From assembly GCF_900230285.1 (NCBI RefSeq), contig NZ_OCNK01000002.1, positions 186,001 through 250,000 on the forward strand: a stretch of DNA of 64,000 nt, given 5' to 3'. The notes under the pieces are model-generated. The model made no database searches. It worked only from the letters and a program-made list of their open reading frames with translations, and was not told the origin of the DNA. Each line of letters begins with the position of its first letter. Position 1 is the first letter of the stretch. Below, piece after piece: positions 2,665-9,846 of this stretch. The translations under genes and the position numbers were made by a program. The DNA is from Blastococcus haudaquaticus (GTDB lineage: Bacteria > Actinomycetota > Actinomycetes > Mycobacteriales > Geodermatophilaceae).

Positions 2665-4071
2665 TCACCGGCCGCGCGCGGCCAGGATGCGGGCCTCGGC
2701 ATCCGGCCCCGGGCCGACCGAGGGCAGGCGCAGCAGGAAGAACAGCCCCAGTGCCCACCAGGCCGCCAGGACCAGCCATTCGTAGGGCCAGATCAGCGCC
2801 GCCGGCATCCCGGGCAGGAAGAGGACACCGAGGCCGATGGCCAGCACGGCCGCGAGGACGCCGGTCGTCTGGCCCCCCGGCGCGCGGAAGGGGCGGTCCA
2901 TGTCCGGTTCCCGGCGCCGGAGCACGACGAAGCTCACCGCGACCATGACGTAGGCGACGACGATGCTGAACCCGCCGGCGTCGACCATCCAGACCAGGGT
3001 CTGCCGTCCGAAGAACGGCGCGATCACCGACAGCGCTCCGATGAACAGGAGCGCGTTGCCGGGCGTCCGGAAGCGTGGGTGCAACCGCCCGAACCAGGCG
3101 GGCACCATGCCGGACTGACCCAGCGCGTAGAGGAGTCGGCTCGCCCCGATGAGGAAGCCGTTCCACGAGGTCAGGATGCCCGCGATGCCGCCGATCACCA
3201 GGACGTCACCCATCAGGCCGCTGCCCCACAGTGCCGTCATGCCGTCGGCGGCGGCCAGGTCCGAGGCGGCGAGCTCGCCGGCGGGCAGCGACGAGCCGAC
3301 CGTCAGCATGATCATCACGTACCAGCCGACGGCCAGTGCGACGGAGACCAGGAGCAGCTGACCGATCCGGCGGTAGGACATGTCGATCTCCTCCGCCGAC
3401 TGCGGGATGACGTCGAACCCCACGAACAGGAACGGCGTCGCGACCAGCACCGTGATCAGGCCGGCCAGGCCCCCGGTGAACAGCGGTTGCATGTTCGCGG
3501 TGTCACCGCCGACGAAGCTCCCCACGACCAGGGCGAGCCCGACCCCGAGCAGGAACAGGACCGCCACGGTCTGGAAGACCGCTGCCGGCCGGACTCCGAC
3601 GTAGTTCAACGCGGTCATCACCACGGCCGCGCCCACGCCGATCGCGACCCAGCTGGCGTACACGTCGTAGTCGGCAACGGTCCACAGCCGCCCGGCCAGC
3701 ATGTCGGGGAAGAGGTAGAGCATGGTCTGCGGCAGGGCGACCGCCTCGAACGCGACGACGGAGACGTACCCGAGGACCAGCGCCCACGAGGTCACGAACG
3801 CCGGTCGGCTGCCCAGCGCACGGAGGGCGTAGTTGTGCTCTCCACCCACGTGGGGCATCGCGGAGACCAGCTCGGCGTAGGTCAGGCCGACCAGGGCGAC
3901 CACAACTCCGCCGATGACGAAGGCGAGGGCGGCCCCGAGCGTGCCGGCGCCCTCGAGGAAGCCGCCCGTGAGGACGATCCAGCCGAAGCCGATCATGGCG
4001 CCGAAGGCCACCGCCAGCACGTCCCACCGGCCGAGCGTCCGGATGAATCCGCCGTGCTCCTGCTCAGTCAT
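2665..4071 (-). CDS. APC superfamily amino acid permease
   Basis: Inner-membrane transporter of the amino acid-polyamine-organocation superfamily, 468 aa, the usual length. About twelve hydrophobic segments can be followed, beginning with FGAMIGFGWIVLTGGFLEGAG, which is the unwound TM1 substrate region (written here only partly: GAMIGFGWI). Other family marks are PHVGGEHNYALRA after TM2 and the TM6 region FVGFDVIPQSAEE. The substrate is probably an amino acid or amine. The ATG start has GAAGGAG seven bases upstream. It stands alone, downstream of and co-oriented with the two-component genes but separated by 193 bp. Confidence 0.88.
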   Translation of the reverse strand: MTEQEHGGFIRTLGRWDVLAVAFGAMIGFGWIVLTGGFLEGAGTLGAALAFVIGGVVVALVGLTYAELVSAMPHVGGEHNYALRALGSRPAFVTSWALVLGYVSVVAFEAVALPQTMLYLFPDMLAGRLWTVADYDVYASWVAIGVGAAVVMTALNYVGVRPAAVFQTVAVLFLLGVGLALVVGSFVGGDTANMQPLFTGGLAGLITVLVATPFLFVGFDVIPQSAEEIDMSYRRIGQLLLVSVALAVGWYVMIMLTVGSSLPAGELAASDLAAADGMTALWGSGLMGDVLVIGGIAGILTSWNGFLIGASRLLYALGQSGMVPAWFGRLHPRFRTPGNALLFIGALSVIAPFFGRQTLVWMVDAGGFSIVVAYVMVAVSFVVLRRREPDMDRPFRAPGGQTTGVLAAVLAIGLGVLFLPGMPAALIWPYEWLVLAAWWALGLFFLLRLPSVGPGPDAEARILAARGR

Positions 4072-4264
4072 CGCGACTCCTTCGCCGGGCCCGTAGGAAC
4101 AGGGAGGGACCTCCGTCGATCGAAGCGATGGTGCCCCGTTCGCGCCGTGCGGGCAGGGCGAACCGGCCGGGGACCGGAGCCGGGAGACCGGACCGCGTCC
4201 CGGTGGCCGACCCGACTTCTCGGGGGCGCAAGCGATCGGCGGAGCCGGCGCCGTGCCACCACGG

Positions 4265-5383
4265 CTACGGAGCGGTTCCCCGGCCGCCCGCCGAGGGCAG
4301 CTCGACCGTGATGCGGAGCCCGCCGCCTCGGCGCGGAGCGATCGTGAGCTCCCCGTCGTGCGCCTGCACGATGCTCTTGACGATCGCCAGGCCGAGCCCG
4401 ACGCCCGCATGGTCGCCGCGGATGCGTTCGGTGCCGCGCTGGAAGGGCTCGGCGAGCGTCGAGACCAGCCCGGGCGTCAGCGTCGCGCCGGTGTTCTCGA
4501 CGGTGAGCACCGCGGCGCCGGGTCGGACGCCGGTCCTGATCCACACGGCGCCGTCCTCGCGGACGTTGTGGACGATCGCGTTGTGCAGCAGGTTCGTGAT
4601 CATCTGCAGCAGGAGCGCGCGCGACCCGCAGGCGGGGGTGATGCCGCCGGAGGTCGTGATGGTGACGCCGCGCTCCTCCGCGAGCGGGAGCAGGGTCTCG
4701 GTGGCCTCCTCCGCGAGGAGGGACAGGTCGACGTCCTCCCGGATGAAGGACCGTTGATCCGCGCGGCTGAGCAGGAGCAGCGCTTCGGTGAGCTCGATCG
4801 CCCGCGCGTTCACGGTGTAGAGGCGGTCGAGGAGCTCGCCGGTGTCGCGGCCGGGGTCCTTGCGCGCGACGTCGAGCAGCGTCTGGGTGACCGCCAGCGG
4901 GGTGCGCAGCTCGTGGGAGGCGTTGGCGGCGAACCGCTGCTGCTCGGCGACCTGCGCCTCCAGCCGGGCGAGCATGCCGTCGAAGGCGTCGGCCAGCTCC
5001 CGGAACTCGTCGCTCCGGCCCGGTAGCCGGATCCGGTGGGACAGCGATCCGGCGGCGGCCAACCGCGTCGCGTCCGTGATGCGGGTCAGCGGGGCGAGCA
5101 TCCGGCCGGCGAGGATCCAGCCTCCCGCCAGACCGAGCACGAGCAGGAACGCCATCGCGGCCGCAGCCCTCGGCGCGAAGGCACGCTGGAGGTCCGACCG
5201 GCTCGGGATGAAGGGCGCGGGGCCGCTACCGGGCCGCGACGGGACGTTGAGCACGCCGTCGGGCACGTACCGCAGCAGGAACACCCACACGACCGCCAGG
5301 AGCAGGCCTCCGGCGAGCAGGAGGAAGCCGGCATAGCTGAGGGTGAGCCGTAGGCGTGCACTGGGACCCGCTGCTCTATCCAC
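4265..5383 (-). CDS. sensor histidine kinase (VanS/OmpR-type partner)
   Basis: Membrane histidine kinase, 372 aa, second gene of a two-component pair. Order: TM1 (about 14-37), a short proline-rich extracytoplasmic loop (about 40-70), TM2 (about 73-95), HAMP, then the dimerisation H-box NASHELRTPLAV with the phosphorylated His near 157, and an HATPase_c domain with N-box NLLHNAIVHN and G-box GVGLGLAIV. The G1 box is degenerate (VENTGATL). The GTG start lies inside the last unit of a 16-bp tandem repeat and has only a weak ribosome site. It is probably the partner of the response regulator just upstream and, by context, a sensor of cell-envelope state or glycopeptide, comparable to VanS. Confidence 0.88.
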   Translation of the reverse strand: MDRAAGPSARLRLTLSYAGFLLLAGGLLLAVVWVFLLRYVPDGVLNVPSRPGSGPAPFIPSRSDLQRAFAPRAAAAMAFLLVLGLAGGWILAGRMLAPLTRITDATRLAAAGSLSHRIRLPGRSDEFRELADAFDGMLARLEAQVAEQQRFAANASHELRTPLAVTQTLLDVARKDPGRDTGELLDRLYTVNARAIELTEALLLLSRADQRSFIREDVDLSLLAEEATETLLPLAEERGVTITTSGGITPACGSRALLLQMITNLLHNAIVHNVREDGAVWIRTGVRPGAAVLTVENTGATLTPGLVSTLAEPFQRGTERIRGDHAGVGLGLAIVKSIVQAHDGELTIAPRRGGGLRITVELPSAGGRGTAP

Positions 5384-5466
5384 CTGCTGCTCTATCCACC
5401 CGCTGCTCTATCCACCCGCTGCTCTATCCACCTGCTGCTCTATCCACCTGCATCTCTATCCACGGC
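5371..5466 (-). repeat. six tandem copies of a 16-bp unit at the regulator-kinase junction
   Basis: Unit CTGCTCTATCCACC(C/T)G on the + strand, six consecutive copies (starts 5371, 5387, 5403, 5419, 5435, 5451; the last is degenerate). On the coding (-) strand each unit reads GTGGATAGAGCAGC(A/G)G, which holds both a GTG and a TAG. The first unit met by the ribosome supplies the TAG stop of the response regulator and the final unit supplies the GTG start of the kinase, so copy-number change would alter spacing without altering either protein. Confidence 0.95.
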
Positions 5467-6151
5467 CCGGTTCCGCGCGCCCGGCGCCCGGGGCCGTGTC
5501 GATCCGGTACCCGACGCCGGGCACCGTGCCGATGATCCCCGGCTCACCGAGGCGTTTGCGCAGTGCCGAGACGGTGATGCGGACCGCGTTCGTGAAGGGG
5601 TCGGCGTTCTCGTCCCACGCCCGTTCCAGCAGCTCCTCGGCGCTGACGACACCGCCCTCGGCGGCGACGAGGACCTCGAGCACGGCGAACTGCTTCCGGG
5701 TGAGCGCGACGTAGCGGCCCTCGCGATAGACCTCCCGGCGGAACGGGTCCAGCCGCAGACCGGCGATCTCCCGCACGGGTGGTCGGTTGTGCGCACGCCT
5801 GCGGTCCAGTGCCCGGAGCCGGAGCACGAGCTCCCGCAGCTCGAACGGCTTGGTGAGGTAGTCGTCGGCGCCGAGCCCGAACCCGGAGGCCTTGTCGTCG
5901 AGGCGGTCGGCGGCGGTGAGCATCAGGATCGGCATGCCGCTGCCGGACGCGACGATGCGCGTGGCGATCTCGTCACCGGAGGGGCCGGGGATGTCGCGGT
6001 CGAGCACGGCGATGTCGTAGGCGTTGATGCCCAGCAGCTCCAGTGCGGTGTCCCCGTCGCCGGCGAGGTCGGCCGCGATCGCCTCGAGACGCAGCCCGTC
6101 CCGGATGGCCTCACCCAGGAAGGGTTCGTCCTCGACGATCAGCACGCGCAC
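5456..6151 (-). CDS. OmpR/PhoB family response regulator (VanR-like)
   Basis: DNA-binding response regulator of 231 aa. The receiver domain (residues 1-115) has the acidic pair EDE at 7-9, the phosphoacceptor Asp51 in VLDRDIPG, Thr in MLTAAD and Lys in TKPFELREL. The C-terminal winged helix (about 130-222) has the transactivation-loop pattern LTRKQFAVLEVLV and ends with GVGYRID. GTG is chosen as start because VRVLIVEDE is the conserved beginning and GGAG lies close upstream; an ATG nine codons earlier would fall inside the upstream direct repeat. It is divergent from the carboxypeptidase-racemase-ligase operon, which it probably activates. Confidence 0.88.
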   Translation of the reverse strand: MRVLIVEDEPFLGEAIRDGLRLEAIAADLAGDGDTALELLGINAYDIAVLDRDIPGPSGDEIATRIVASGSGMPILMLTAADRLDDKASGFGLGADDYLTKPFELRELVLRLRALDRRRAHNRPPVREIAGLRLDPFRREVYREGRYVALTRKQFAVLEVLVAAEGGVVSAEELLERAWDENADPFTNAVRITVSALRKRLGEPGIIGTVPGVGYRIDTAPGAGRAEPGRG

Positions 6152-6167
6152 GGCTCCGAGGCTAGAG

Positions 6168-6193
6168 CGCCGGTGCATATCGCCGGCGTATCG
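6168..6193. promoter_or_regulatory. 13-bp direct repeat, candidate response-regulator site
   Basis: CGCCGGTGCATAT is followed directly by CGCCGGCGTATCG (CGCCGG core plus similar 3' half). It sits in the 88-bp divergent region between the response regulator and the VanY-like gene. Tandem half-sites are the usual target of OmpR-type regulators, so this is the best local candidate for control of both operons. Confidence 0.4.
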
Positions 6194-6239
6194 AAATGCG
6201 CGTACGGGGTGACAACACGCCGCTGGCTTCGCTGTCGGC

Positions 6240-6950
6240 ATGTCCAACACCACGCAGGAACGGACGACGACCCACCACCGCCGATCGACCCCCGTCGTCG
6301 TCCTGGCCGCGGCGATCGCGGCGATCGTCGGAGCGATCCTCGGGTACCAGGCGGTGACCGCCCCGTCCTCCTCGACGGCGTCGCCGCTCGTCGCGCTCGG
6401 CGACACCCCCGGCCCGCACCCACCGGAGGCCCGGAGCACCGTCCCCGATGCGCACGGCCCGCCGGGTGCGCCCGGGCGGGCCGTCCCCGGCGGCCTGACG
6501 GTCGACGACGGCGTCGTCCCGGCCGGCGTGACCGTCTTCGACGACGGAGTACCCGCCGTGGCCAACCTCGATCCGGCGCTCCTGGCCGCCCTCCGCCAGG
6601 CCGCGCGCACAGCGGAGGACGACGGCGTCCGGTTCACCGTCAACAGCGGCTGGCGCTCCCCCGAGTACCAGGAGGAACTCCTCCGCGAGGCCATCGCCGA
6701 GTACGGCTCGGCCGAGGAGGCAGCCCGCTGGGTCTCCACCCCGGACACGTCCACCCACGTGACCGGGGACGGGGTCGATCTCGGGCCCGCCGAGGCCACG
6801 GACTGGCTGTCGGAGCACGGCGCCGGGTACGGGCTGTGCCAGATCTACCGGAACGAGCCCTGGCACTACGAACTGCGTCCCCAGGCGATCGACCACGGGT
6901 GCCCGCGGATGTACGCCGACCCCACCCACGACCCGAGGACGCAGCAGTGA
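6240..6950 (+). CDS. M15 family D,D-carboxypeptidase (VanY-like), membrane-anchored
   Basis: Zinc D-alanyl-D-alanine carboxypeptidase of the VanY/VanXY type, 236 aa, removing the terminal D-Ala from peptidoglycan stems. One N-terminal membrane anchor (about 18-38) is followed by a proline-rich extracytoplasmic linker (about 45-95) and the catalytic domain. Metal and catalytic residues are visible: STHVTGDGVD gives His173 and Asp180 (SxHxxGxxxD motif), and NEPWHYE gives Glu206 and His209. The GWRSPEYQ motif before it is also family-typical. First gene of a three-gene operon; its stop overlaps the racemase GTG. The context with a racemase, a ligase and VanRS-like regulators suggests cell-wall precursor editing. 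Confidence 0.88.
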   Translation: MSNTTQERTTTHHRRSTPVVVLAAAIAAIVGAILGYQAVTAPSSSTASPLVALGDTPGPHPPEARSTVPDAHGPPGAPGRAVPGGLTVDDGVVPAGVTVFDDGVPAVANLDPALLAALRQAARTAEDDGVRFTVNSGWRSPEYQEELLREAIAEYGSAEEAARWVSTPDTSTHVTGDGVDLGPAEATDWLSEHGAGYGLCQIYRNEPWHYELRPQAIDHGCPRMYADPTHDPRTQQ

Positions 6951-8077
6951 CCGGCACCCTGGCCCGGTCGCGCCCTCACCTCGGCGGCGTCGTCCCGCCG
7001 ACGCTGCAGACGCTGCCCGCGGCGGTGGCGGAGAACCTCGCGATCGTCCGGCGACGGACCCGCGCCCGGGTCATGGCGGTGGTCAAGGCCGACGGGTACG
7101 GGCACGGTGCCCGCGCGGTCGCGCACGCCGCGGTCGAGGCCGGCGCGGACTGGCTCGGGACGACGGACGTCGCCGAGGCGTCCGCGCTGCGCGCGGCAGG
7201 GCTCACCGTGCCGATCCTGACGTGGTTGCACCCCTCCGGCGTGGACGCCGAGACCGCCGCCGTGGACCGGATCGACGTCGCGGTCGGCTCCGTCGACGAA
7301 CTGGAGGCATGGCTGCCGGACGCCTGCCGCAGCGTCCGGGTCCACCTGAACATGGACACCGGCATGGCGCGGGAGGGGTGCCCTCCACCCGAATGGGAGG
7401 CACTGATCGCGCGGGCCCAGCAGGCACAGCGACAGGGCAGGATCCGCGTCGTCGGCCTCATGGGACACCTCCCGTCGGCCGACCGGGCACGACCCGAGGC
7501 GAACGAGGCAGCCGTCGTGCAGCTGAGGCGCGCCGGGCGAGCGCTCACGGCGGCGGGCTTCGGCGCGCCGCTCACCCACCTGGCCGCCACCTCCGGAACG
7601 CTGACGGACCCGGCCACCCATTTCGGGATGGTCCGCGTGGGCGCCGGCCTCGTCGGCATCGACCCGTCGGGGACGACCGACCTGCACGGCGCGTCGAGGC
7701 TGACCGCCCCGATCGTGCACCGGACGACCGCCGGTCCGGGGACACCGGTGGGCTACGACGGAGCATTCGTCACCACGAGGCCCACCAACCTCGGCGTCCT
7801 GCCACTCGGGTACGCCGACGGGATCCCGCGGGAGATCGCTTCCGCGGCCTCGGTGGAGATCCGGGGACGGCGGTACCCGGTCGTCGGGCGGGTCTCGATG
7901 GACCAGATCGTCATCGACACCGGTGCGGACGCCTTCCCGCTCGGCACGACCGCGACGGTGTTCGGCCCACGGGGTGGCGCGGCACCGACCGTCCACGACT
8001 GGGCCCGCTGGGCGGGGACCATCCCGCACACCGTCGTCACGGGCATCGGCCCCCGCGTGCGACGGACGGTCGCATGA
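6947..8077 (+). CDS. alr: alanine racemase (soluble; possible VanT-like role)
   Basis: PLP-dependent amino-acid racemase, 376 aa, interconverting L- and D-alanine (or serine in Van-type systems). The PLP lysine is Lys47 in VVKADGYGHG; the opposite catalytic tyrosine is Tyr270 in VGYDGAF; the MDTGM and GYADGIPR motifs are conserved. The C-terminus reads TIPHTVVTGIGPRV where many alanine racemases have T-I-x-Y-E, so the conserved Tyr-Glu pair is absent. There is no membrane domain, unlike VanT of VanC/VanG operons. GTG start overlaps the preceding stop (GTGA), and the stop overlaps the ligase start (ATGA), so the three proteins are translationally coupled. Confidence 0.9.
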   Translation: MTGTLARSRPHLGGVVPPTLQTLPAAVAENLAIVRRRTRARVMAVVKADGYGHGARAVAHAAVEAGADWLGTTDVAEASALRAAGLTVPILTWLHPSGVDAETAAVDRIDVAVGSVDELEAWLPDACRSVRVHLNMDTGMAREGCPPPEWEALIARAQQAQRQGRIRVVGLMGHLPSADRARPEANEAAVVQLRRAGRALTAAGFGAPLTHLAATSGTLTDPATHFGMVRVGAGLVGIDPSGTTDLHGASRLTAPIVHRTTAGPGTPVGYDGAFVTTRPTNLGVLPLGYADGIPREIASAASVEIRGRRYPVVGRVSMDQIVIDTGADAFPLGTTATVFGPRGGAAPTVHDWARWAGTIPHTVVTGIGPRVRRTVA

Positions 8078-9066
8078 CCCCGCACGTGCTGGTCATCGGC
8101 GGCGGGCAGAACGCCGAGCACGACGTCTCCCTCGGATCGGCAGCGGGCGTCGAGGAGGCGCTGCGCAGCCGCGGGATCGAGGTCACCGCCGTCACCGTCG
8201 GCCGCGACGGGCGATGGAGGCACCAGGCGGAACCGCTGGGCGCGAACGCGGCCGACTCCGTGGTCGCGGCCCTACCGCTGCTCGCCCGGGCCGACGTGGT
8301 CTTCCCGGCGATCCACGGCCCGCTGGGCGAGGACGGGACGCTCGCCGCGCTGTGCGCCCTCACCCACACCCCGGTGGTCGGCTCGGGCACGCGGGCCGGC
8401 GCGATCGGCATGGACAAGTGGGCCACCAAGCTCGTCGCCGAGGCGATCGGGATACCCACCGCCCCCGGACGGCTGGTGCACGCGGGCGACGTGGCCGGCA
8501 TCGAGTTCGACGAGCCGGTCGTCGTCAAACCGGTCTCTGCCGGGTCGAGCCACGGCGTGGGGCTCGCCCGCGACGCCGGCCGGCTCGCGGTGGCGCTTCG
8601 GGCCGCGGCCCGCCACGACGACCGGATCCTGGTCGAGCGGGTGGTCCGCGGCCGCGAGATCGACGTCGCCGTCCTGCGGGAGGCCGACGGGCGCTGCTGG
8701 GCGCCGCCGCCGTTGGAGATCCACGCCGACGGGCTGTTCGACACCGCCACGAAGTACGACGGCACCGCACGGTTCACCGTGCCCGCCGACCTGAGCGACG
8801 CGGAGTGCGCCGCACTGACGCGCGCGGCGCTGCGGATGTTCGACGCCCTCGGCTGCGCCGGGGTCGCGCGCGTCGACTTCTTCCTCACCGACGACGGCCC
8901 CGTGCTCAACGAGGTCAACACGATGCCGGGGATGACCGCCCGGTCCCAGGTGCCCATGATGTTCGCGGCGGCGGGGGTGTCGTACGAGGACCTGGTCGTC
9001 CGGCTGGTCGACGCCGCCATGACGTCGGCACCGCCACGCGGTGCCGGGGAGGGGCCGGGAGCGTGA
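8074..9066 (+). CDS. ddl: D-alanine--D-alanine ligase family enzyme
   Basis: ATP-grasp ligase joining two D-amino acids for peptidoglycan precursors, 330 aa. Conserved features: EHDVSLGSA at 15-23 (N-terminal D-Ala binding glutamate), VVVKPVSAGSSHGVG for ATP binding, omega-loop LysTyr at 227-228 (TKYDG), and the metal-binding end LNEVNTMPGMTARS. A Lys-Tyr omega-loop is typical of D-Ala-D-Ala and D-Ala-D-Ser ligases, whereas VanA/VanB-type D-lactate ligases lack it, so depsipeptide formation is unlikely (family knowledge). It ends a carboxypeptidase-racemase-ligase operon. Whether it is the housekeeping enzyme or a second, inducible ligase depends on the rest of the genome. Confidence 0.9.
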   Translation: MTPHVLVIGGGQNAEHDVSLGSAAGVEEALRSRGIEVTAVTVGRDGRWRHQAEPLGANAADSVVAALPLLARADVVFPAIHGPLGEDGTLAALCALTHTPVVGSGTRAGAIGMDKWATKLVAEAIGIPTAPGRLVHAGDVAGIEFDEPVVVKPVSAGSSHGVGLARDAGRLAVALRAAARHDDRILVERVVRGREIDVAVLREADGRCWAPPPLEIHADGLFDTATKYDGTARFTVPADLSDAECAALTRAALRMFDALGCAGVARVDFFLTDDGPVLNEVNTMPGMTARSQVPMMFAAAGVSYEDLVVRLVDAAMTSAPPRGAGEGPGA

Positions 9067-9078
9067 GCCGACGGCGCC

Positions 9079-9846
9079 TCACCCCAGCAGTGGCCGGATG
9101 TTCTCCACCCACACGTCCCAGCCCAGCCGGCCGATCAACGCCGTCACGACCACGAGGAAGACGACCCGGATGAAGCGGCTGCCCCGGGCGGTCGCCGTCC
9201 GGGCACCGAGATAGCCGCCGAGCATGTTGGCGGCACCCAGGACGAGCCCCAGGCCCCAGAAGACCGCTCCGTAGGGCGCGAAGTAGAGCAACGCCCCGAC
9301 GTTGGTGGCGACGTTGACGATCTTGGCCTTGGCGCTGGCGTTGAGGAAGTCGTAGCCCAGCAGCGACACCATGGCGAAGACGAGGAACGAACCGGTCCCG
9401 GGGCCCAGGACGCCGTCGTAGAAGCCGATGCCGCCGCCCACCGCCGCGGCGACGCCGTGGTGTCGCCGCCCGGTGTGCCGCAACGCGGTCACCTCCCCCA
9501 GTGCCGGGCGCAGCACGGTGAACGTCGCGATGGCCACCAGTGCCACGACGATGACCGGCTTGAACACCTCGGCCGGCAGCGCCGCGGCGACGGACGCCCC
9601 GGCGAAGCTGCTCACCAGGGCGACGCCGGCCATCGGCAGCGCGGTCCGCAGGTCGGGGCGCACCCGGCGGTAGTAGGTGACGGCGCTGGTCGTGGTGCCG
9701 AAGACCGAGGCCAGCTTGTTCGTCGCCAGGGCCTGCACCGGGCTCATCCCGGGAACGAGCAACAGGGCCGGCAGCTGCAGGAGACCGCCGCCACCGACGA
9801 CCGCGTCGATCCACCCGGCCGCGAGCGCCGCCACCAGGAGGAGCAC
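9079..9846 (-). CDS. TauE/SafE family sulfite exporter-like membrane protein
   Basis: Membrane permease of the TSUP (TauE/SafE, COG0730) family, about 255 aa with seven or eight membrane segments, handling sulfite, sulfonates or related anions. The two diagnostic half-repeats are AGWIDAVVGGGGLLQLPALL near the N-terminus and GIGFYDGVLGPGTGSFLVFA in the second half. No ATG is available; the GTG at 9846 is chosen because GGAG lies five bases upstream and it precedes the first membrane segment. A CTG overlapping the upstream stop would add 18 residues. It follows the phospholipase D gene closely and is convergent with the ligase gene. Confidence 0.85.
   Translation of the reverse strand: MLLLVAALAAGWIDAVVGGGGLLQLPALLLVPGMSPVQALATNKLASVFGTTTSAVTYYRRVRPDLRTALPMAGVALVSSFAGASVAAALPAEVFKPVIVVALVAIATFTVLRPALGEVTALRHTGRRHHGVAAAVGGGIGFYDGVLGPGTGSFLVFAMVSLLGYDFLNASAKAKIVNVATNVGALLYFAPYGAVFWGLGLVLGAANMLGGYLGARTATARGSRFIRVVFLVVVTALIGRLGWDVWVENIRPLLG

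Follow-up and report, generated by a model that had tools for sequence, protein, structure and literature searches.

A five-gene van-like locus lies at positions 4265–9066 of a 64,000-nucleotide stretch of the Blastococcus haudaquaticus genome (contig NZ_OCNK01000002.1, positions 186,001 to 250,000; hereafter the window). All five genes were confirmed, with a Pfam domain search in support. The kinase and regulator genes (vanS, vanR) are on the minus strand, and the vanY, racemase (alr) and ligase (ddl) genes are on the plus strand, pointing away from them. The vanY/racemase junction is a 4-bp overlap, GTGA (6947–6950), and the racemase/ligase junction is a 4-bp overlap, ATGA (8074–8077). A preliminary description of this DNA had reported five gene types, with enzymes coupled by 4-bp overlaps and facing a VanRS-type pair, all of which we find in the sequence. 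The features are as follows, X being the D-amino acid that the ligase would join to D-Ala.

4265–5383, minus strand: VanS-like sensor histidine kinase (372 aa; HAMP, HisKA and HATPase domains)
5459–6151, minus strand: VanR-like OmpR-family response regulator (231 aa; Pfam, NCBIfam)
6178–6206, plus strand: predicted VanR box, three half-sites with 11-bp spacing (intergenic comparison of the vanR/vanY interval)
6240–6950, plus strand: VanY-like (M15B) D,D-carboxypeptidase (236 aa; PF02557, 47 bits)
6947–8077, plus strand: Alr-fold racemase with His at the inner gate (376 aa; TIGR00492)
8027–8029, plus strand: codon of racemase His361, in the column of Geobacillus Tyr354 (sequence and alignments)
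8074–9066, plus strand: Ddl-fold ligase, proposed D-Ala–D-X ligase (330 aa; PF07478, PF01820)
8737–8739, plus strand: codon of ligase Phe222, in the DdlB Tyr210/VanG Phe252 column (alignments)
8947–8949, plus strand: codon of ligase Gln292, in the DdlB Leu282/VanG Arg324 column (alignments)

The racemase consists of two Alr domains, with no membrane domain found by Pfam, and scores 227 bits on the general alanine-racemase model TIGR00492 (cut-off 168) and 170 bits on the VanT-G catalytic model (cut-off 460). According to the available text of PMC3485190, Tyr354 of the Geobacillus alanine racemase sits at the inner end of the substrate channel and is tied to substrate choice; the position is Asn in VanT, Thr in lysine racemase and Ala in a broad-specificity racemase. 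PDB entry 4ecl, named a serine racemase, has Asn in this column, and the window racemase has His361. Among the racemases in our tree that are encoded beside a ligase of this kind (hereafter coupled), the gate is His in 38 of 39 and Asn in one (L040); among the others it is Tyr in 34 of 36, Trp in L206 and His in L212, with the true housekeeping alr of relatives supplied by loci L186–L190. All 39 coupled racemases retain the usual residues at the columns of what we take to be the catalytic Lys, the catalytic Tyr, the cofactor-ring Arg and the active-site Met. The preliminary description was right that the racemase lacks a membrane domain and the C-terminal Tyr-Glu pair, which reads His-Thr in the alignment; it had ranked that loss as a mere difference, and we regard it as the most telling feature of the locus. 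Two racemases stand apart: the Asn-gated one (L040/L182, genome G284) is the only coupled racemase seen with the VanT residue, and L212 (genome G336) lies outside the coupled clade, the window ligase finding no relative in its fetched stretch.

The ligase scores above cut-off on two general NCBIfam models for D-Ala-D-Ala ligases. It scores 199 bits on the VanG model (cut-off 495), 196 on the D_ala_D_ser model (cut-off 520) and 181 on the D_ala_D_lac model (cut-off 550). Its omega-loop reads KY, with Tyr at the DdlB 216 column. At DdlB column 210, Tyr is found in DdlA, in DdlB and in the Ddl of this genome, and Phe in VanA, VanB, the VanG-like ligase and the window ligase; at column 282 the first three have Leu or Met, the Van ligases Arg and the window ligase Gln. 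In the alignment these columns correspond to VanG Phe252 and Arg324, which, like VanC2 Phe250/Arg322, we take to set D-Ser specificity; of the VanG-type pair the window ligase keeps Phe and has Gln in place of Arg. The accessible part of PMC12004154, on VanC2, does not name the specificity residues.

The residue pair tracks the presence of a racemase gene. In fetched stretches with flanks of unequal length (1.5 to 6 kb), alr was found with 106 of 106 Phe/Gln ligases and beside none of the ligases with Tyr/Met (23), Phe/Arg (12), or Tyr/Leu, Tyr/Val, Phe/Met and Val/Arg (one each); the VanG-like row, entered as a reference, counts as lacking alr although VanT adjoins it, and L004, a further ATP-grasp protein from the window's genome, was excluded. 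This reference (L156) is an RGI-labelled vanG-type cluster from a Subdoligranulum record (51% to VanG), and no true VanG ligase scored above cut-off in any of 396 genomes of the phylum. The window's genome also encodes a third Ddl-like protein (L014, C2, 7443–8435) with Phe/Met columns, Arg for the omega-loop Lys and a very long branch.

By phylogeny, the ligase groups with actinobacterial Ddl and the racemase with actinobacterial Alr. In the ligase tree, which is unrooted, 41 of the 106 coupled ligases form one clade (100/100), and a branch with 100/97 support groups them with ten Ddl of housekeeping type, one of which is that of the window's genome. The VanA/VanB/VanG-like clade (100/96) lies across that branch with the remaining rows, so that it and the coupled ligases are not sisters; VanC, VanE, VanL and VanN entered the comparison as scored models only. 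In the racemase tree the coupled racemases make up one side of a branch (98/85) adjoining the housekeeping Alr of the window's family (six rows), and the single VanT row falls among the remaining 30 rows on a long branch whose exact place is unsure. The same eight rows, comprising Nocardia-like pairs and a fusion protein, are the first to split from the coupled group in both trees (99/91 for the ligase, 97/92 for the racemase), indicating that racemase and ligase were inherited together.

The pair occurs beside housekeeping copies. The genome (4.5 Mb, 11 contigs) holds another alr, with a Tyr gate and 290 bits on TIGR00492, and two other ddl-like genes, one of them a separate ddl with Tyr/Met columns; the cluster pair shows none of the marks of a housekeeping pair (sole copies, Tyr gate, Tyr/Met(Leu) ligase columns). 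The preliminary description had proposed a search for another alr and ddl, and their presence bears out an accessory role. At E 1e-60 or better the ligase was found in one of 16 genomes of the genus, the window's own (completeness is below 90% in 5 of the 16), and across the order in 28 of 298 genomes with all branches pooled, one of which (L044) has housekeeping columns and no alr found. To the right of the cluster a TauE gene has a match in four congeners and a PLD gene beyond it in two; DNA similarity to the four congeners stops at 9074–9092, just beyond the ligase stop at 9066. The G+C content of the cluster genes is similar to that of their neighbours. The five-gene set is accessory, and it looks acquired. 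Carriage on a mobile element was considered and rejected: no PLSDB plasmid encodes a ligase of at least 60% identity (best 43.7%), and no viral contig encodes a relative. The VanX family PF01427 has no match in the genome at E 0.001, in agreement with the reported lack of VanX; VanH is not among the five cluster genes by Pfam, no genome-wide search aimed at it having been made.

The arrangement recurs widely. Examination of the best 80 of 302 relatives in named genomes showed VanR (at least 80% identity) together with the ligase in 54 loci, 41 divergent and 13 on one strand, which argues against a chance arrangement. Microbacterium accounts for 29 of the 41 divergent loci; the layout is also found in Terrabacter, Amycolatopsis, Prauserella, Allonocardiopsis, Phytoactinopolyspora, Kocuria, Umezawaea (without alr) and Actinophytocola xinjiangensis, and on four contigs of metagenome-assembled genomes (MAGs) assigned to Acidimicrobiia, Dehalococcoidia, Streptosporangiales and Micropruina. 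The full five-gene set is present in 39 of the 41, L050 ending before vanS and L070 lacking alr. In the 13 same-strand loci, all from Actinomadura, vanR lies on the operon strand, usually right downstream of ddl (about 6 kb off in L056), and an M15 peptidase is often present but more distant. The remaining 26 of the 80 loci comprise 18 alr-ddl pairs without vanRS or vanY and eight without a VanR match in the stretch examined (L051, L057, L059, L065, L071, L073, L076 and L111), several of which are cut contigs.

Three of these loci deserve separate mention. L070 (Umezawaea endophytica, 4000–6970) has two VanY-like open reading frames (ORFs) and no alr found, and its ligase has Val/Arg at the specificity columns and KKH for KY, so that the absence of the racemase coincides with changes at these very sites. 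L047 and L045 (binned Dehalococcoidia and Acidimicrobiia) carry clusters nested among actinobacterial ones at 76–80% ligase identity, reflecting either transfer or wrong binning.

The regulators are of VanRS type, as had been claimed: the best NCBIfam models are VanS-O for the kinase (485 bits, below the cut-off of 720) and VanR-O for the regulator (453 bits, below the cut-off of 505). The second-best regulator of the genome scores 127 bits on VanR-O vs. about 452 for the cluster VanR. VanR is the best-conserved protein of the cluster, with 83–94% identity to same-cluster VanR elsewhere; VanS shows 51–76%. Allowing up to three mismatches, the three-half-site block between vanR and vanY has no second match in the genome, and the backward control pattern has no match at all. 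Of the 42 divergent loci, the window among them, 38 have a relaxed form of the box no more than 150 bp upstream of vanR (L049, L050, L062 and L097 do not), and it turns up one further time elsewhere within the 42. In 12 of the 13 same-strand loci (the exception is L068), a two-half-site core lies 38 bp ahead of vanR, and a copy lies about 60–215 bp upstream of the M15 match in seven of the 13 (L052, L053, L054, L056, L068, L084 and L118). The half-sites thus track both promoters after a change in gene order, which is good evidence that the block is a VanR box, at which VanR would be predicted to bind. Downstream of the box (6207–6239), inspection by eye showed CAAC kept in many divergent loci. 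By eye, many of these loci also have TTGACT or TTCACT about 8 bp ahead of the vanY start, where the window reads TTCGCT; this may be a -10 element of a leaderless transcript.

The carboxypeptidase has VanY-N as its best NCBIfam match (63 bits, below the cut-off of 250) and scores 21 bits on the VanXY model (cut-off 250). All three catalytic motifs are present in strict form in 38 of 42 VanY orthologues. A hydrophobic N-terminal stretch, seen by eye, precedes the catalytic domain, suggesting that VanY is membrane-anchored. The vanY frame of L049 (Streptosporangiales MAG, 2746–4880) lacks the His-x-x-Gly stretch and its alr starts about 1.8 kb further on; this copy looks altered.

A sister branch (Lentzea, Actinopolyspora, Actinokineospora and others) carries the same racemase-ligase pair with no VanRS or VanY nearby. 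Here a VanX-like protein lies ahead of the pair in 17 of the 18 loci among L101–L124 without vanRS and vanY, the exception being L119; PF01427 was tested on two of these proteins, the others being tblastn relatives. Conserved neighbours were identified by codon-position filtering and Pfam, clustering of raw ORFs having given mostly frame noise. Fourteen further regions were extended, of which L171 (VanRS-VanY type) and L183 (no alr) were set aside; among the 12 left, a VanX-like match was found in six (L172, L173, L174, L176, L178 and L184), that of L178 about 1.2 kb beyond the ligase, and L173 and L174 belong to the window's own family. If the VanX-like protein is a D-Ala-D-Ala dipeptidase, as its sequence suggests, its presence in the operon would be futile with a ligase making D-Ala-D-Ala, which speaks for another ligase product. 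On a plasmid of Streptomyces sp. SYP-A7193 (L158, 4861–7062), Alr and Ddl domains are joined in one 733-aa protein (WP_322746733) with the His gate and the Phe/Gln ligase columns, a fusion that argues for the racemase product feeding the ligase.

Gene content, operon layout, the candidate box, the altered specificity columns, co-inheritance of the enzymes and their sporadic presence beside housekeeping copies make us lean, with slightly better than even confidence, towards an acquired, inducible target-replacement system, in which D-Ala–D-X made under VanRS control replaces D-Ala-D-Ala, X being most likely Ser. The VanS-like kinase would sense glycopeptide or cell-wall stress and phosphorylate the VanR-like regulator, which would bind the three-repeat box and switch on vanY-alr-ddl. 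The product of the His-gated racemase would be some D-amino acid in place of, or in addition to, D-Ala, with D-Ser the likeliest; the ligase would join this residue to D-Ala, and D-Ala–D-X would supplant D-Ala-D-Ala in peptidoglycan precursors. Membrane-anchored VanY would strip the terminal D-Ala from precursors still ending in D-Ala-D-Ala, and a vancomycin phenotype would be expected. We propose that the system works like VanC/E/G, its ligase and racemase having arisen separately from actinobacterial Ddl and Alr. With both enzymes altered at the presumed substrate-selecting positions, the locus may rebuild the cell-wall target without the terminal D-alanine, and a short list of positions in two enzymes makes the D-Ala–D-X idea directly testable.

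Several observations weigh against target replacement. The window racemase reaches the alanine-racemase model, and the uncoupled L212 likewise has a His gate. The omega-loop Tyr is that of D-Ala-D-Ala ligases, yet VanG has the same Tyr; Gln at the 282 column differs from the Arg of Van ligases and proves no substrate. The 106 coupled ligases are not independent, having been fetched with the window ligase, in part from genomes present in two collections, and belonging to one clade. With no VanX in the genome, D-Ala-D-Ala from the housekeeping Ddl would compete. In the sister branch, the one VanX-like protein scored gave 59 bits on DdpX and 34 on VanX, both below cut-off, and six of the 12 extended pairs have no VanX-like match (L175, L177 and L179–L182).

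The strongest rival is that the pair makes ordinary D-Ala-D-Ala, resistance or remodelling coming solely from VanY's trimming of pentapeptide to tetrapeptide and alr-ddl merely refilling the pool on induction. The general Alr and Ddl models and the omega-loop Tyr fit this. So does precedent: in the sections of PMC8698665 covered here, no actinobacterial van-like set is as widespread as vanY, alone or with vanRS, and VanY of the A40926 producer is the first model for VanY in self-resistance. It leaves aside the His gate and Phe/Gln columns, conserved in the coupled enzymes and not in the genome's housekeeping copies, as well as the sister branch that couples the pair to a VanX-like protein, and we consider it unlikely, though worth serious weight. 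More doubtful is a reading in which actinobacteria invented, separately and with the His-gated racemase and the Phe/Gln ligase, a chemistry that leaves peptidoglycan precursors with a terminal residue new at that place (neither Ala nor Lac nor Ser); the VanY, VanX-like and fused forms would then be three ways of packaging it, and VanRS would have joined one branch later.

Resistance to D-cycloserine, with a drug-insensitive racemase and an extra ligase shielding both drug targets, draws on reports in the available text of PMC7691350 that over-expression of ddl or alr gives such resistance and that a change at Mycobacterium Alr residue 364, equivalent to 354 according to the available text of PMC3485190, is listed as a resistance mutation. 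This explanation is improbable: it accounts for neither VanY nor VanRS, and a D-Ala-D-Ala dipeptidase beside the pair in the sister branch would counteract it. Finally, that the pair is the organism's housekeeping alr and ddl, by chance beside a vanRS-vanY triad, fits the grouping of both enzymes with actinobacterial Ddl and Alr but is refuted by the separate Tyr-gated alr and Tyr/Met ddl, by the absence, in 15 of the 16 genus genomes, of a ligase match at E 1e-60 or better (5 of these 16 being less than 90% complete) and by recurrence of the set in 54 other loci.

VanC/E/G/L/N systems combine a ligase, a D-amino-acid racemase, a D,D-peptidase and VanRS. The window has genes of these types, with a VanRS-like pair, and the Phe at the DdlB-210 column of VanG. 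It differs in that its ligase and racemase fall outside the VanG-like and VanT rows of the trees, its peptidase is of VanY type and does not reach the VanXY model, and Gln stands where VanG has Arg; unlike the membrane-bound, Asn-gated VanT, its racemase has a His gate and no membrane domain. The label "VanC/VanG-like locus" therefore does not hold as family membership, the VanG, D-Ala-D-Ser and VanT models lying far below cut-off and the trees placing both enzymes with actinobacterial Ddl and Alr. The preliminary description had also treated a ligase within housekeeping Ddl as fatal to its proposal; the ligase does lie inside the Ddl radiation, but in a supported clade of its own whose specificity columns are altered. 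Its view that D-Lac is an unlikely product agrees with the racemase in the operon and a ligase outside the VanA/B clade, and its suggestion of cell-wall remodelling survives in that remodelling of D-Ser type is plausible.

VanO systems supply the closest models for kinase and regulator, namely the vanHOX regulators VanRS-O, both under cut-off, but unlike vanHOX the window's genome has no VanX found and its ligase is not of the D-Lac kind. VanHAX systems, which make D-Ala-D-Lac, are likewise distinct: the D_ala_D_lac score, the tree and the PF01427 search reveal neither a VanA-type ligase nor VanX. VanY-N of the A40926 producer Nonomuraea is the best match of the window VanY, which differs in sharing an operon with alr and ddl. 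The pdx operon of Micromonosporales, as presented in the portion of PMC8698665 covered here, has a Ddl-like ligase, a VanX-like dipeptidase and VanRS with a proposed D-Ser-like remodelling; it uses a PALP dehydratase-like enzyme where the window uses an Alr-fold racemase.

The arrangement of the five genes is already published. The accessible text of PMC8698665 (Andreo-Vidal et al. 2021) describes vanRS-vanY-alr-ddl clusters from Allonocardiopsis, Murinocardiopsis and, in rare cases, Geodermatophilales, for which a remodelling akin to that of D-Ala-D-Ser systems is suggested. They have the same five gene types, and that of Allonocardiopsis opalescens DSM 45601 (L062) has the same layout as the window at 62–89% identity per gene. 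In that text we saw no analysis of residues, no sister operons of VanX type, no fusion and no regulatory box; its section 2.1.5 gives the van-like genes of Micrococcales as mainly of vanHAX types and leaves Microbacterium clusters unmentioned. Nor was a residue-level or operon-family treatment found in the portions of the open-licence literature searched, PMC9689679 and PMC11273654 included. New here are the gate His, the Phe/Gln columns, the VanX-like sister branch, the plasmid fusion and the conserved VanR box, and Microbacterium, Actinomadura and others are added as hosts of such operons.

Searches on the window from other angles included PADLOC, in which the five proteins gave no match, setting aside an anti-phage defence reading, and Rfam, which had no match within the window at the gathering threshold and thus lends no support to an RNA element. 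A tandem repeat with a 16-bp unit (6.1 copies, 93% matches) occupies 5366–5463, covering the vanS start and the vanR end, and changes in its copy number could alter these gene ends or their coupling.

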